NCBI GenBank assembly: GCA_902576605.1
Contig: CACGVI010000009.1
Coordinates: 1 to 38,688 of the forward strand
Direction: 5' to 3'
DNA: 38,688 nucleotides
From: an uncultured Candidatus Actinomarina sp.
GTDB taxonomy: Bacteria > Actinomycetota > Acidimicrobiia > Actinomarinales > Actinomarinaceae
Numbering within the stretch: the first letter of the stretch is position 1; the number at the start of each line of letters is the position of its first letter. Of the stretch, positions 9,082 through 31,830 are shown piece by piece. The notes below the pieces were generated by a model that saw only the letters and a list, made by a program, of their open reading frames with translations, made no database searches and was not told the DNA's origin. Both the position numbers and the translations under genes were made by a program.

Positions 9082-9243
9082 ATGGCGTCTGACAAAAGGC
9101 CACCAATCACTTTGGTGTGTACAGAAACGGGTGATCACAATTATGTGACGACTAAAAATAAAACAAACACACCTGATAGGCTAGAGCTAATGAAATATAG
9201 CCCTAGGTTGAGAAAGCACACTCTTCATAGAGAAAAAAGGTAG
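9082..9243 (+). CDS. rpmG: 50S ribosomal protein L33, C-minus type
   Basis: Short ORF missing from the track: [54 protein letters not shown]33 fold signature with only one Cys. Confidence 0.93.
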
Positions 9244-9280: not shown

Positions 9281-9865
9281 ATGAAAAACGTTTCTAATAT
9301 AGAAAACTACAACGATGACATCTCTAATGCAGAGTTGGTAAAAAAATCACAGTTTGGTGATAAATCTGCATTTGAACAATTAGTTGTTAGGCATCAGGAT
9401 TTAGTCTTTTCATTGGCTTACAAATTAACTGGCAACAGGGAAATGGCAAATGATGTTGCTCAAGAGTCATTCATTAGAGCATGGAAAGCAATTGAAAAGT
9501 TTCGTGGAGACTCTACATTCAGTACCTGGATTTATAGAATTACTGTTAATACAGCATGGACTCTAAGAAAAAAAGCAAAGAAACATAATACTCTTAATAT
9601 AGAAGACACTTATGAGCCAATTGTTATTGATGAAAAAAAAGATCCAGAGTTAGTTGCAATAAATTCTGACTTATCTTCTGTTTTAGTTAGTGCTTTAGAT
9701 AAGATTCCAATAGATCAGAGAATAATTGTTGAGTTAAAAAACATTGAAGGTAGATCACACAAAGAGATTGCCGATTTTCTTGGAATTAGTGTTACAGCTG
9801 CAAAAGTAAGATTACATAGAGCTCATCAAAAATTAAGACAGATATTAGAGGAAGTAGAAAGATGA
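9281..9865 (+). CDS. RNA polymerase ECF-type sigma-70 family factor
   Basis: Sigma region 2 (AYKLTGNREMANDVAQESFIRAWKAIEKFRGDSTFSTWIYRITVNTA) and region 4 (IEGRSHKEIADFLGISVTAAKVRLHRAHQKLR). Confidence 0.94.
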   Translation: MKNVSNIENYNDDISNAELVKKSQFGDKSAFEQLVVRHQDLVFSLAYKLTGNREMANDVAQESFIRAWKAIEKFRGDSTFSTWIYRITVNTAWTLRKKAKKHNTLNIEDTYEPIVIDEKKDPELVAINSDLSSVLVSALDKIPIDQRIIVELKNIEGRSHKEIADFLGISVTAAKVRLHRAHQKLRQILEEVER

Positions 9866-10236
9866 AAGATATTTTTTCAAACTTGAAGACAAACATACTT
9901 TGTAAAAGAACTAGAAATAAAATGTTGTCTTCTTACCTAAGTAATCAATATTTTGGTTTTGATAACAATGCACATGCCTCTTCATGTATCAAATGTCAAG
10001 TATCTGGAAAAAGATATAAAGCTTTTAAAGAGGAATTAGATAATGAGTTCAAAAAAGAAGTAGAAGTACCGACAGACTTTGCCTCTAAGGTAATGTCATC
10101 ATTAGATAAAAAAGTAAAAACAACTACAAGTAAGAGCACAAAAATAATATTATTGACATTGCTCGGAATATTATCAATCGTATTTTTAGTATTTGGACGC
10201 AAGCGCTCATCTAGCAAATTAGAGAAGGAGCAATAA
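9862..10236 (+). CDS. Putative ZAS-type (zinc-binding) membrane anti-sigma factor
   Basis: ATGA overlap with the sigma gene. HASSCIKC matches the HxxxCxxC ZAS motif. C-terminal TM helix (IILLTLLGILSIVFLVFG). Confidence 0.72.
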   Translation: MKDIFSNLKTNILCKRTRNKMLSSYLSNQYFGFDNNAHASSCIKCQVSGKRYKAFKEELDNEFKKEVEVPTDFASKVMSSLDKKVKTTTSKSTKIILLTLLGILSIVFLVFGRKRSSSKLEKEQ

Positions 10237-13621: not shown

Positions 13622-16600
13622 TTGTTGTCCGCTGTTCAGAATTCTAGACTTTCATTTGCAAAAATTCCTAAAGTTCTAGATATTCCAGATTTGTTAATTA
13701 TACAAAAAGATTCTTTCAAGTGGTTTATTGAAGAGGGTTTAAAAGAGATTTTAGATGAAATTTCTCCTATTGAAGATTTCTCTGGTAGATTTTCTTTAGA
13801 ATTCTTAAATCATTATTTCGAAGAGCCATTAAAAACTCTTGAAGATTGTAAGATAACAGACTCAACTTATTCACAACCTTTATATGTAACTGCTCAATTT
13901 TTAGATCGTGAAACCGGTCAAATAAAACAACAAACAGTTTTCCTTGGTGATTTTCCAATCATGTCAGATACTGGAACTTTCATTATTAATGGAACAGAAA
14001 GAGTTATTGTTAGTCAGTTAGTCAGATCACCTGGAGTATATTTTTCTCAAGAAATAGATAAAACATCTGACAAGGAAGTCTTCATTGGAAAAATGATTCC
14101 TGGAAGAGGTGCATGGCTTGAATTCGACACAGACAAACGAGACACTCTTGGTGTAAGAGTAGATAGAAAAAGAAGACAACACATCACTGGTTTCTTGATG
14201 GCCCTTGATGTAATTGAAAATAAAGAAGATGCAATAGAGTTATTAGGAGATTACCCATCCGTAAGAAACACTATTGAACGAGATCCTGACACAACAAGAG
14301 AAGCAGCACTTATTGATTTATACAGAAAGTTAAGACCAGGAGAACCTGCAACAGTTGAATCTGCTAGAAACTTGGTTAAACAAATGTTTTACACTCCTAA
14401 AAGATATGACTTAACAAAAGTTGGCCGATACAAAGTTGAACAAAAGTTAGGAAGACAATACGGCGAAAAAGATGCTGAGTCTTATACAACTGAAGATGAC
14501 GGAATGTTAAGAATTGAAGATATGATTGATTCAATTAAATATGTCATCGCTCTACACGCAGGTGAAGATAGCTTTATTAACAATAAAGGTAAAGAAATTC
14601 CTGTTCGTCTAGATGACATTGATCACTTTGGAAATAGAAGAATTAGAACAGTAGGTGAATTAGTTCAAAATCAAGTAAGAGTAGGTCTTAGTAGATTAGA
14701 AAGAGTAGTTAGAGAAAGAATGACAACCCAGGAACCGGAAGCGATTACACCTCAGTCACTAATTAACATTCGTCCAATTCAAGCATCATTAAAAGAATTT
14801 TTTGGTACAAGTCAATTAAGCCAGTTCATGGATCAACCAAATCCAATTGCAGGTTTAACCCACAGAAGAAGACTGTCAGCTTTGGGTCCTGGAGGTTTGT
14901 CAAGAGAAAGAGCAGGATTTGAAGTTAGAGACGTTCACCCTTCCCACTATGGAAGAATGTGTCCTATTGAGACACCAGAAGGACCAAATATTGGTCTAAT
15001 AGGTACCCTTGCTACATATGGTCGCGTTAACAAATTTGGATTTATTGAGACACCATATTGGAAAGTTGAAAATGGGGTTGTCAAAACAAATAAAGCAGTG
15101 TACTTAACTGCTGCTGAAGAGGATAATTTTACAATTGCTCAGGCTAATGCTCCCTTAAAAGAAGATGGAACTTTCCAAAATAAGAGAGTTCTCTCTCGAC
15201 AAAATGGGGGAGAAGTTGCATTCGTTTCAGATAAAGAAATAGATTATATGGATGTCAGTCCTAAACAAATCTGTTCAGTCACTACAGCTCTTATTCCATT
15301 TCTTGAGCATGATGATGCAAACAGAGCATTGATGGGATCAAACATGCAGAGACAGGCAGTTCCATTAGTTAAAACTGAAGCACCTTATGTAGGTACAGGA
15401 ATGGAAGAAAATGTTGCAAGAGATTCTGGAGAAGCTCTTATATCTAATATTTCTGGAACTGTTGAAGAAGTATCTGGTGATGAAATCACAGTAAAAGAAG
15501 AAGGTACTAATAAAAAACATAGATTTGAAGTTTTAAAATTCAAAAGATCCAACCAGGCTACAAGTTGGAATCAAAAACCACTTGTCAAGGTTGGTACAAA
15601 AGTTAAACCAGGAGACGTATTAGCTGACGGTCCAAGTACACAAGGTGGAGAGTTAGCTCTAGGTAAGAATTTACTTGTTGGATATATGCCGTGGGATGGC
15701 TATAACTTTGAAGATTCAATTGTAATATCTGAAAGACTTGTTAAAGAAGATGTCTTAACTTCTGTACACATAGCTGAACATGAAATAGAAGCACGAGATA
15801 CAAAACTTGGTGAAGAGGAAATAACAAGAGATATTCCTAATGTAGCTGAAGAAGTTTTAATGGATTTAGATGAAATGGGAATTGTTAGAATCGGTGCCGA
15901 AGTATCACCAGGAGATTATCTTGTCGGAAAAGTTACTCCAAAGGGAGAAACCGAGTTAACACCTGAAGAAAGACTTTTGAGAGCTATTTTTGGTGAAAAA
16001 GCAAGAGAAGTTAGAGATACCTCTTTGAGAGTTCCTCATGGTGAAAGAGGAAAAGTTATAGATGTACAAATTTTAAAGCGTGATGATGGAGCGGACTTAC
16101 CTCCTGGCGTCAATCAAAAGGTAAGAGTATATGTCGCAATACAAAGAAAAATTCAAGTTGGCGACAAGCTATCAGGTAGGCACGGAAACAAAGGTGTTAT
16201 ATCAAAAATTCTTCCAATTGAAGACATGCCTTATATGGAGGATGGTACACCTCTAGATATTATGCTCTCACCTCTAGGTGTTCCTAGCCGAATGAATCTG
16301 GGACAAATTTTAGAGACACATCTTGGTTGGGCAGCCGACCAGGGTTGGAATGAATACAAAGGCCAAACAAAAGCATCTAGTGGTGCAAAGCCTGGAACTC
16401 TTATCTCAACGCCGGTGTTTGATGGGGCAGATGAAGATGAAATACATGAAATTTTAAGAAATGTAAATCCAAACAGAGATGGAAATTTGATGGTTGATGA
16501 AAATGGTAAAGCAACTCTATATGATGGTCGAACTGGTGAATCTTTTGATTCAAAAATTACTGTTGGATACACATATATATTAAAGCTTATTCACTTAGTT

Positions 16601-17014
16601 GATGAAAAAATTCATGCAAGATCAACTGGTCCTTACTCCATGATTACTCAGCAACCATTGGGTGGTAAAGCTCAATTTGGTGGCCAAAGATTCGGAGAAA
16701 TGGAAGTTTGGGCGTTAGAAGCTTATGGTGCTAGCTATGCACTTCAAGAACTTCTTACTATTAAATCTGATGATACTGTCGGTAGGGTAAAGGTATATGA
16801 ATCAATAGTTAAGGGTGATAATATTCCTGAGCCAGGCATACCAGAGTCTTTTAAAGTTCTATTAAAAGAAATGCAAAGCTTATGTTTGAATGTTGAAATT
16901 CTTTCAGCAGGTGAGGAAATTTCAATGAAAGATATAAGCGATGAATATGTCAAGACAGCTGAAACTTTAGGAATTGATATGACACGCCCAGAACAAGACG
17001 AGGCTGAGGTATAA
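13622..17014 (+). CDS. rpoB: DNA-directed RNA polymerase subunit beta
   Basis: 1130 aa, TTG start behind GAGGAGG. Rif region [68 protein letters not shown]. The exact TTG (13622 or 13625) is uncertain. Confidence 0.98.
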
Positions 17015-17016
17015 AT

Positions 17017-20000
17017 ATGGATAAAGTTTTTGATGAGTTAAGTATCAGTCTTGCAACCTCAGATCAAATGAGGAGTTGGTCCTTTGGTGAAGTTAAAAAA
17101 CCAGAAACAATTAATTACAGAACTTTAAAGCCTGAGAAAGACGGTCTTTTTGATGAAAGAATTTTTGGACCTACAAAAGATTGGGAATGTTCTTGTGGAA
17201 GATATAAAAGAATTAGATATAGAGGAATTGTTTGTGAAAGATGTGGTGTTGAAGTAACCAGACGTGAAGTTAGAAGAGAGAGAATGGGACATATTGAACT
17301 CGCTGCACCAGTTACTCACATTTGGTACTTTAAGGGAGTTCCAAGTAGATTAGGTTATTTCTTAGACATGTCTCCAAAAGAGCTTGAAAAAGTAATTTAT
17401 TTCGCAGCATATTTGGTAGTTTCCATCGATTCTAAAAAGAGAACAAAAGATTTAGCGGAGCTTGAAGAAGCAGTTGTTGCAGAAGTAGAGATTGTTAATG
17501 AAGATTTTGAAGAATGGGAACAAAAAAGAATTAAACAGATGGATACTGAAATTAAAGCCATGGAGAATGCAAAAATTCCTGAGCCAGAAATCCAAATTAG
17601 AAAAAAAGAAGTTGAAAAAGAAATAAAACAAAAAAAAGCTAAGTCTGATGCTGAAATTAAAGTTATCGAAGAAGCCTTCTCTACTTTGAAGACACTTAAG
17701 CCAAAAACACTCATAGAAAATGACACATTGTGGCGTGAAATGATTGACAAATATGATGAGTATTTTACTGGTGGTATGGGAGCAGAAGCAGTTAGAGAGT
17801 TAGTACAACTTGTTGACTTAAAAGCTGAAATGGAAAAATTAGAGACAGACTTAGATTCTAAGTCAGCTCAAAGACGCCAAAGAGCTATTCAACGTATGAA
17901 AGTTATTAAGCCTTTTGCAGATGGAAAAAACCCTCCTGAAGCAATGATACTTGAAGTAGTTCCTGTTATTCCTCCTGAGCTTCGCCCTATGGTTCAGTTA
18001 GATGGTGGTAGATTTGCTACTTCAGATCTTAATGACTTATACAGAAGATTAATTAACAGAAACAATAGGCTGAAAAAACTTATTGAGCTTGGAGCACCAG
18101 ACATAATTATCAGCAATGAAAAAAGAATGTTGCAAGAGTCTGTAGACGCACTGTTTGATAACGGTAGAAGAGGACGTGCTGTTGCGGGTGCAGGTGGACG
18201 TGGACTCAAGTCACTTTCAGATATGCTTAAAGGAAAACAGGGAAGATTTCGTCAGAACTTACTTGGTAAAAGAGTTGATTACTCAGCAAGGTCTGTAATT
18301 GTAGTTGGTCCACATTTAGAACTTCAACAATGTGGTCTTCCTAAAATGATGGCGCTAGAGTTATTCAAGCCATTCGTCATGAAGAGGCTTGTCGAGCTTG
18401 GGCTTGCTCAAAATATAAAATCTGCGAAAAGAATGGTTGAAAGATCAAGGGCTCAAGTCTGGGATGTACTAGCTGAAGTAATTGAAGAACACCCAGTCCT
18501 TTTAAACAGAGCACCTACTTTACACAGGCTTGGTATTCAAGCATTTGAACCAATCCTTGTAGAAGGAAAGGCTATTCAAGTCCATCCTTTGGTTTGTGAA
18601 GCGTTTAATGCTGATTTTGATGGAGACCAAATGGCAGTCCATGTTCCACTTTCAGCAGAAGCACAAGCTGAAGCAAGAGTTCTTATGCTATCAACAAATA
18701 ATGTTTTGTCTCCAGCTTCAGGAAACCCTATTGTTTCACCAAGTCAAGACATGGTTATTGGGCTTTATTACATTACTGAATGTCATGAAGATTTAGAAAC
18801 TGCAAAATTTAATTTTGTTGACTTCAATGAAGCACAAGTTGCTTATGAAAATGGTCATATTGGGTTGCAAACACCAATTAATGTAAGAGTTGGAGATTTG
18901 GCTGGTAATCCAGAAATGCACTCTGAATTAAAAGGAAGATTCTCAGAACTGTTAACTGATCAACCAATTGACGGCAATCAGTTAATGCAAACAACGCTTG
19001 GAAGATTACATTTTAATTCAATTATGCCTACTGATTTCCCATATATTCAGGCTTCTGTCAGAAAACCAGAAATGAAAAAAATTATTTCTGAAGTTATTGA
19101 GCGTTACAATAAAGCTGAACTCAGAATATTTTTAGACTCAATGAAATCTGTGGGCTTTACATTTGGTGCTAAAGCAGGCTTGACTGTTGCCATGAACGAT
19201 GTGAAAACACCTCCAAGCAAAAACCAAATACTAGAAAAATATGAAGCAGAAGCCGAAAAGGTTGAAAAATTATTTTTAGATGACATTATTACTGAAACTG
19301 AGCGTAAGCAAAAAATTATTGAGATATGGAACGAAGCTACAGACCAAGTTCAATATGCTATGAGTGCTGAACTTGAAGCTGAACAGTTCAATCCAGTAGA
19401 CATGATGGTTAAATCTGGTGCTCGAGGAAACATGATGCAAGTAAGGCAATTAGCAGGAATGAGAGGCTTAGTTGCGAATCCTAAAGGTGACATAATTGAA
19501 CGACCAATTAAAAGTAACTTCAGAGAGGGTATGTCAGTACTTGAGTATTTTATATCTACTCACGGTGCTAGAAAAGGTCTCGCCGATACAGCTCTTAGGA
19601 CTGCAGACTCTGGTTATTTAACAAGAAGGTTAGTAGATGTTGCAGCAGGTATCGTGGTTAAAGATTTAGGGGATGAGAATATTGATTGGCGTGGTACTAA
19701 CAAAAAAGTTGTTATTGATGGAAAGTTAAGTCGATACCTGCACTCAACATTGTACGGCCGTGTTTTAGCTGAAGATATAAAGGTAGACAAAAAAGTAGTT
19801 GAGATGGAAAATGGCACCAAGTTGTCCAAAGGGACTTATATAGATGCCGAAGTCCTTGATGGAATTGCAAAATCTGGTGTAGAAGATGTAAGAGTTTTGT
19901 CCCCATTTAACTCCCTTAACCCTGAATCAATGGATCCATTATGTTACGGGTTTAGTTTGGCAACTGGAAAACCAGTTGAGGTAGGTGAAGCAGTTGGAAT

Positions 20001-31524: not shown

Positions 31525-31830
31525 ATGGCAAAAACGAGCAAAATAGTAAAAAACAATCAAAGAAAGAGAGCAATCTCAGTCTACGCTGAAAGACGCCAGG
31601 AGTTGCTTAAGATTATTAAAGATCCTAATACATCATATGACGAAAAGCGTGAGGCTCAAAAAAAGATTGCAAAAATGCCCAGAGATGCTTCTGCTACAAG
31701 ACATCGAAACCGATGCGAAGTAACAGGTAGACCTAGAGGCACCCTCAGAAAATTTGGAATGTCAAGAAATACATTTAGAGATTTGGCATTAAAAGGTGAG
31801 TTGCCTGGTATTAAGAAAGCTTCCTGGTAA
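31525..31830 (+). CDS. rpsN: 30S ribosomal protein S14, long zinc-independent (C-minus) form
   Basis: 101 aa ending in [49 protein letters not shown]. No CxxC pairs. Confidence 0.97.

Follow-up and report, generated by a model that had tools for sequence, protein, structure and literature searches.

In ordinary bacterial RNA polymerases, one cysteine after the bridge helix of the β′ subunit and three cysteines in a hairpin before the base of the trigger loop, the latter arranged as C-x6-C-x2-C-Y-G, clamp a structural zinc. This zinc, which occupies what is called zinc site 2 here, ties the loop that follows the bridge helix to the hairpin just before the trigger-loop base, and it is commonly regarded as a constant component of the bacterial enzyme. 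The known two-zinc RpoC proteins, such as those of E. coli, Thermus, and mycobacteria, are the closest described relatives of the protein considered here. A second comparison is offered by the zinc-free (C-) variants of the ribosomal proteins L33, L36, and S14, in which the cysteines for a structural zinc are likewise replaced within a conserved fold. These variants are commonly known as paralogues of zinc-binding forms, whereas RpoC is single-copy and essential. Such zinc-free forms are also present in the window, by which we mean the whole 38,688-nucleotide stretch analyzed here (GC content 33 to 37%), from an uncultured Candidatus Actinomarina sp.; its features are collected in Table 1.

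Over most of its length, the window RpoC is like the known two-zinc proteins. It is a full-length TIGR02386 equivalog (1626.7 bits over the whole length, against a cut-off of 963.5), all five Pfam Rpb1 domains are matched, and the catalytic motif is preserved. An earlier note on this DNA had described the N-terminal zinc site as intact and the flanks of the second site as normal, and both descriptions hold: zinc site 1 retains C58, C60, C73, and C76 in the spacing C-x-C-x12-C-x2-C, the 28-residue stretch downstream of the hairpin is normal, and the bridge-helix and trigger-loop flanks are as in known RpoC. The difference lies in zinc site 2, where the expected pattern of an upstream cysteine followed by C-x6-C-x2-C-[YF]-G is absent and new conserved loops are found instead. 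When RpoC is aligned with its relatives and the ligand columns are mapped, D886, S966, D973, and C976 occupy them, so that three of the four cysteines are gone; the same note's reading that only the last cysteine (LCYG) remains is confirmed, and the loss in this protein is real. The residue in the first-ligand column varies with gap placement, being D886 in two alignments and R892 in another, but it is never cysteine. The nine cysteines of the protein stand at positions 58, 60, 73, 76, 439, 527, 589, 976, and 1117, and C976 is the only one in the region of the second site. The first-ligand loop contains no substitute cysteine or histidine, and a supply of ligand cysteines from nearby positions, which could have accounted for the altered columns, is not found. 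A single rpoC was identified in the window and source assembly together, with no second copy in that assembly, which is 63% complete. The window protein is thus an otherwise ordinary RpoC minus one usual metal site.

Table 1. Features of the window that bear on zinc site 2 of RpoC and on zinc-free ribosomal proteins
Feature	Position	Strand	Remarks
Ribosomal protein L33, zinc-free form	9082..9243	+	One Cys
rpoB, RNA polymerase β subunit	13622..17014	+	Directly upstream of rpoC
rpoC, RNA polymerase β′ subunit, 1304 aa	17017..20931	+	Open frame; TIGR02386; Pfam Rpb1 domains 1-5
Zinc site 1, residues 58-77	17188..17247	+	Intact
Catalytic NADFDGD motif, residues 531-537	18607..18627	+	Intact
Former first-ligand loop of zinc site 2, residues 885-894	19669..19698	+	No Cys
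Former three-ligand hairpin of zinc site 2, residues 962-978	19900..19950	+	S966, D973, and C976 in ligand columns
Codon of C976	19942..19944	+	Sole retained ligand Cys
Ribosomal protein S14, 101 aa, zinc-free and not of type Z	31525..31830	+	PRK08881
Ribosomal protein L36	37237..37353	+	No Cys; closest NCBIfam model is type B L36, slightly below its cut-off

The same replacement is found throughout the order, which consists of a single genus with low-GC genomes of ~1.1 Mb. The Ca. Actinomarinales have been described as a marine, streamlined order with genomes of ~1.1 Mb (PMC7771536) and as members of the class Acidimicrobiia with a GC content of ~32.5% (PMC12008989). An RpoC match was obtained in 37 of 42 genomes of the order, and in each of the 34 sequences that were read, all from separate assemblies, the ligand columns are D-S-D-C or D-S-E-C. 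Apart from an exchange of arginine and lysine, the first-ligand loop is invariant (GDENIDW[R/K]GT), and the hairpin follows the lineage motif PFNSxxPESMDxLCYG; within the genus, C976 does not vary, and the acidic residues vary little or not at all. Counted across the 34 genomes, extra amino acids and extra synonymous codons number 1 and 18 in the loop, 10 and 37 in the hairpin, and 101 and 194 in the stretch that separates the two. These counts indicate that the replacement motifs, and the loop especially, are under purifying selection and do not represent a decaying remnant. As the same residues recur in all 34 sequences and are under such selection, we regard the loss as real and order-wide; a sequencing error in the region, a concern raised at the outset, is contradicted by its conservation in every relative read.

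Two fragments of the window RpoC were modeled with AlphaFold, one of them 820 amino acids long, with mediocre overall confidence (pLDDT 68.8 and 71.7). Within the 820-residue fragment, the region of zinc site 2 has a mean pLDDT of about 75 to 90 in a model that contains neither metal nor the usual set of cysteines, and a Foldseek comparison of the module with solved β′ chains gives only a loose fit (TM 0.44 to 0.52, rmsd 6.6 to 12 Å). As judged from the sequences, both elements of the site, loop and hairpin, are kept but rebuilt, and it can be hypothesized that side-chain packing, for example by the conserved tryptophan and phenylalanine, takes the place of the metal. The explanation that we favor, and hold with good confidence, is a genuine order-wide loss of zinc site 2, with a strongly conserved and most probably metal-free loop and hairpin standing in for the clamp and holding the module in place. 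The lineage-specific loop and hairpin would keep the module in the same position without metal, the fold would be maintained by packing of side chains, and transcription would otherwise be normal. The likeliest cause is that compensating residues make the site structurally dispensable, and once such residues exist, the site could be lost under varied pressures, among which there may be, in the Actinomarinales, a low supply of zinc in surface seawater.

Elsewhere, possession of the site is the usual state. When 74 relatives from several phyla are aligned, at least 90% of the rows have cysteine in the ligand columns. A first survey of the phylum to which the window belongs comprised 142 aligned segments, namely 141 loci and one E. 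coli segment included to mark the ligand columns. All four cysteines (CCCC) are present in 93 of them, all exceptions fall within the Acidimicrobiia, and the ~47 segments from outside this class are uniformly CCCC. That the substitution might simply be common across Actinobacteria therefore fails as a general statement, Brevibacterium being the sole later exception. A wider set contains 218 CCCC rows among about 315, in a sampling deliberately enriched for losses. With a relaxed DNA pattern, the C-x6-C-x2-C cluster was detected in 239 of 269 Pseudomonadota genomes and 256 of 270 Bacillota genomes. Most of the 44 negatives gave no RpoC match, and the full-length proteins read among them comprise two that are CCCC and one with a single Cys-to-Tyr change, so that no full loss was seen among the full-length RpoC read from these negatives. 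The protein with the Cys-to-Tyr change, C-C-Y-C in its ligand columns, comes from a Bacillota genome, and the change may be real or an error. A stricter pattern requiring GEAVG undercounts, since G[TD]AVG stands in its place in many families that are nonetheless CCCC by sequence, and its tallies are not used as rates. The site is nevertheless a usual and not a defining feature of the RpoC family, since the RpoC of Brevibacterium is also without it.

Several other lineages have lost the site as well. Within the Acidimicrobiia, the ligand columns read S/T-D-S-S in families f2 (in part), f7, and f27 and P-D-S-S/A/C in families f13, f25, f28, f81, and f83. In Brevibacterium, the site is absent in all 36 sequences read (T/A-A-S-H), while two sister taxa in its family are CCCC. 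In the Dehalococcoidia (Chloroflexota), a small clade of six genomes lacks the site amid CCCC relatives, with varied residues in its place (D-C-S-S, D-S-S-C, D-S-P-C, and D-S-S-S). The RpoC proteins of all these groups are like that of the Actinomarinales in missing three or four of the cysteines together, as would be expected once the metal is gone, and differ from it in their replacement residues. Zinc site 1 is intact in those losing lineages in which it was looked for. With the zinc segment left out of the tree, the minimum is seven changes of state, of which the starred branches force at least four. A topology that unites the three losing groups of the Acidimicrobiia in one clade is rejected (P = 9.8e-6). 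A loss shared by the Actinomarinales and the families with S/T-D-S-S is not rejected, with P values of 0.93 on a quick tree, which misplaced groups, and 0.088 on a careful one. For this reason we state that zinc site 2 has been lost at least four times, and probably five.

Among the alternatives, zinc sparing fares best. It holds that a zinc-poor surface ocean selected for fewer zinc sites, in parallel with the zinc-free ribosomal proteins, and the earlier note had proposed that such sparing extended to RNA polymerase. One part of that proposal stands: L33, S14, and L36 of the window are all without zinc cysteines, with S14 scoring above the cut-off for PRK08881 (135.5 bits) and below that of type Z (67.5 against 77). 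The marine, streamlined nature of the lineage (PMC7771536) fits the idea, and in a zinc-import mutant of Cupriavidus metallidurans, RpoC accumulates in inclusion bodies (PMC12632275), which marks RpoC as a zinc-sensitive client. The extension to RNA polymerase meets difficulty in other lineages, in a small sample of which the ribosomal operons downstream of rpoC were examined. Two Brevibacterium genomes have lost the polymerase site and carry zinc-type L36, and the genomes of families f2 and f13 have likewise lost it and carry zinc-type S14 and L36. Conversely, the genome of family f10 has a zinc-free S14, together with zinc-type L36, and keeps the polymerase site. Prochlorococcus and an uncultured picocyanobacterium also keep all four cysteines. 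Across this small sample, loss of zinc site 2 does not track zinc-free ribosomal proteins, and given the discordance in Brevibacterium, f2, f13, and f10, the two traits are not tightly linked. Zinc sparing may have contributed to the loss in the Actinomarinales, although as the explanation of it we consider it rather unlikely, and to judge from this small sample it is not the general cause of such losses.

Two further observations concern zinc in these genomes. The genome of family f7, in which the polymerase site is lost, combines a zinc-free S14 with a zinc-type L36, so that, together with f10, the zinc traits of S14 and L36 vary independently within the class. In the window itself, positions 9281-10236 contain an ECF sigma factor gene overlapping an open reading frame of 124 amino acids with H-x3-C-x2-C and a hydrophobic stretch. 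The latter has no Pfam or NCBIfam match; its product looks like the zinc-type anti-sigma factor of this sigma factor and is probably a retained zinc protein.

It is also conceivable that C976 and acidic residues (D886/E887/D890 and D973) still hold a metal at the site, be it zinc, iron, manganese, or magnesium. The constancy of C976 and of the acidic residues in the genus, and the presence of acidic residues in other ligand columns, would suit such a site. However, serine and aspartate are weaker zinc ligands than cysteine, and other losing lineages have serine, alanine, or histidine at the position of C976 and no matching acidic set, which makes a substitute metal improbable. That a dispensable site simply drifted into neutral decay, the genome being a streamlined one, would agree with the small, AT-rich genome, but it sits poorly with purifying selection on the replacement motifs and with the occurrence of the losses in genomes of 2 to 5 Mb as well, and we give it even less weight. 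An artefact of sequencing, assembly, or frameshift, for which one could cite a source assembly in 25 contigs and far from complete, is ruled out for practical purposes by the continuous reading frame and by the agreement of 34 sequences, drawn from separate assemblies, in these residues.

In a limited search of the open-access literature, no description of a natural loss of zinc site 2 from β′ was found. The paper on the Actinomarinales (PMC7771536) does not mention zinc, RNA polymerase, or rpoC, and that on UBA5794 (PMC12008989) mentions neither zinc nor RNA polymerase.

In conclusion, the near-universal zinc site 2 appears to be dispensable. It is likely that multisubunit RNA polymerases in nature can function without the second zinc of β′, its site having been lost at least four times, in the Actinomarinales, other Acidimicrobiia, Brevibacterium, and Dehalococcoidia, and replaced by varied but conserved metal-free packing; the zinc would then be a replaceable folding staple and not a catalytic requirement. 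The analysis also cautions that where small ocean genomes have lost zinc ligands, zinc sparing is not always the reason. The clean, repeated loss of zinc site 2 in nature brings the role of the second β′ zinc within reach of direct experiment, for which Brevibacterium provides hosts that can be cultured and are not streamlined.
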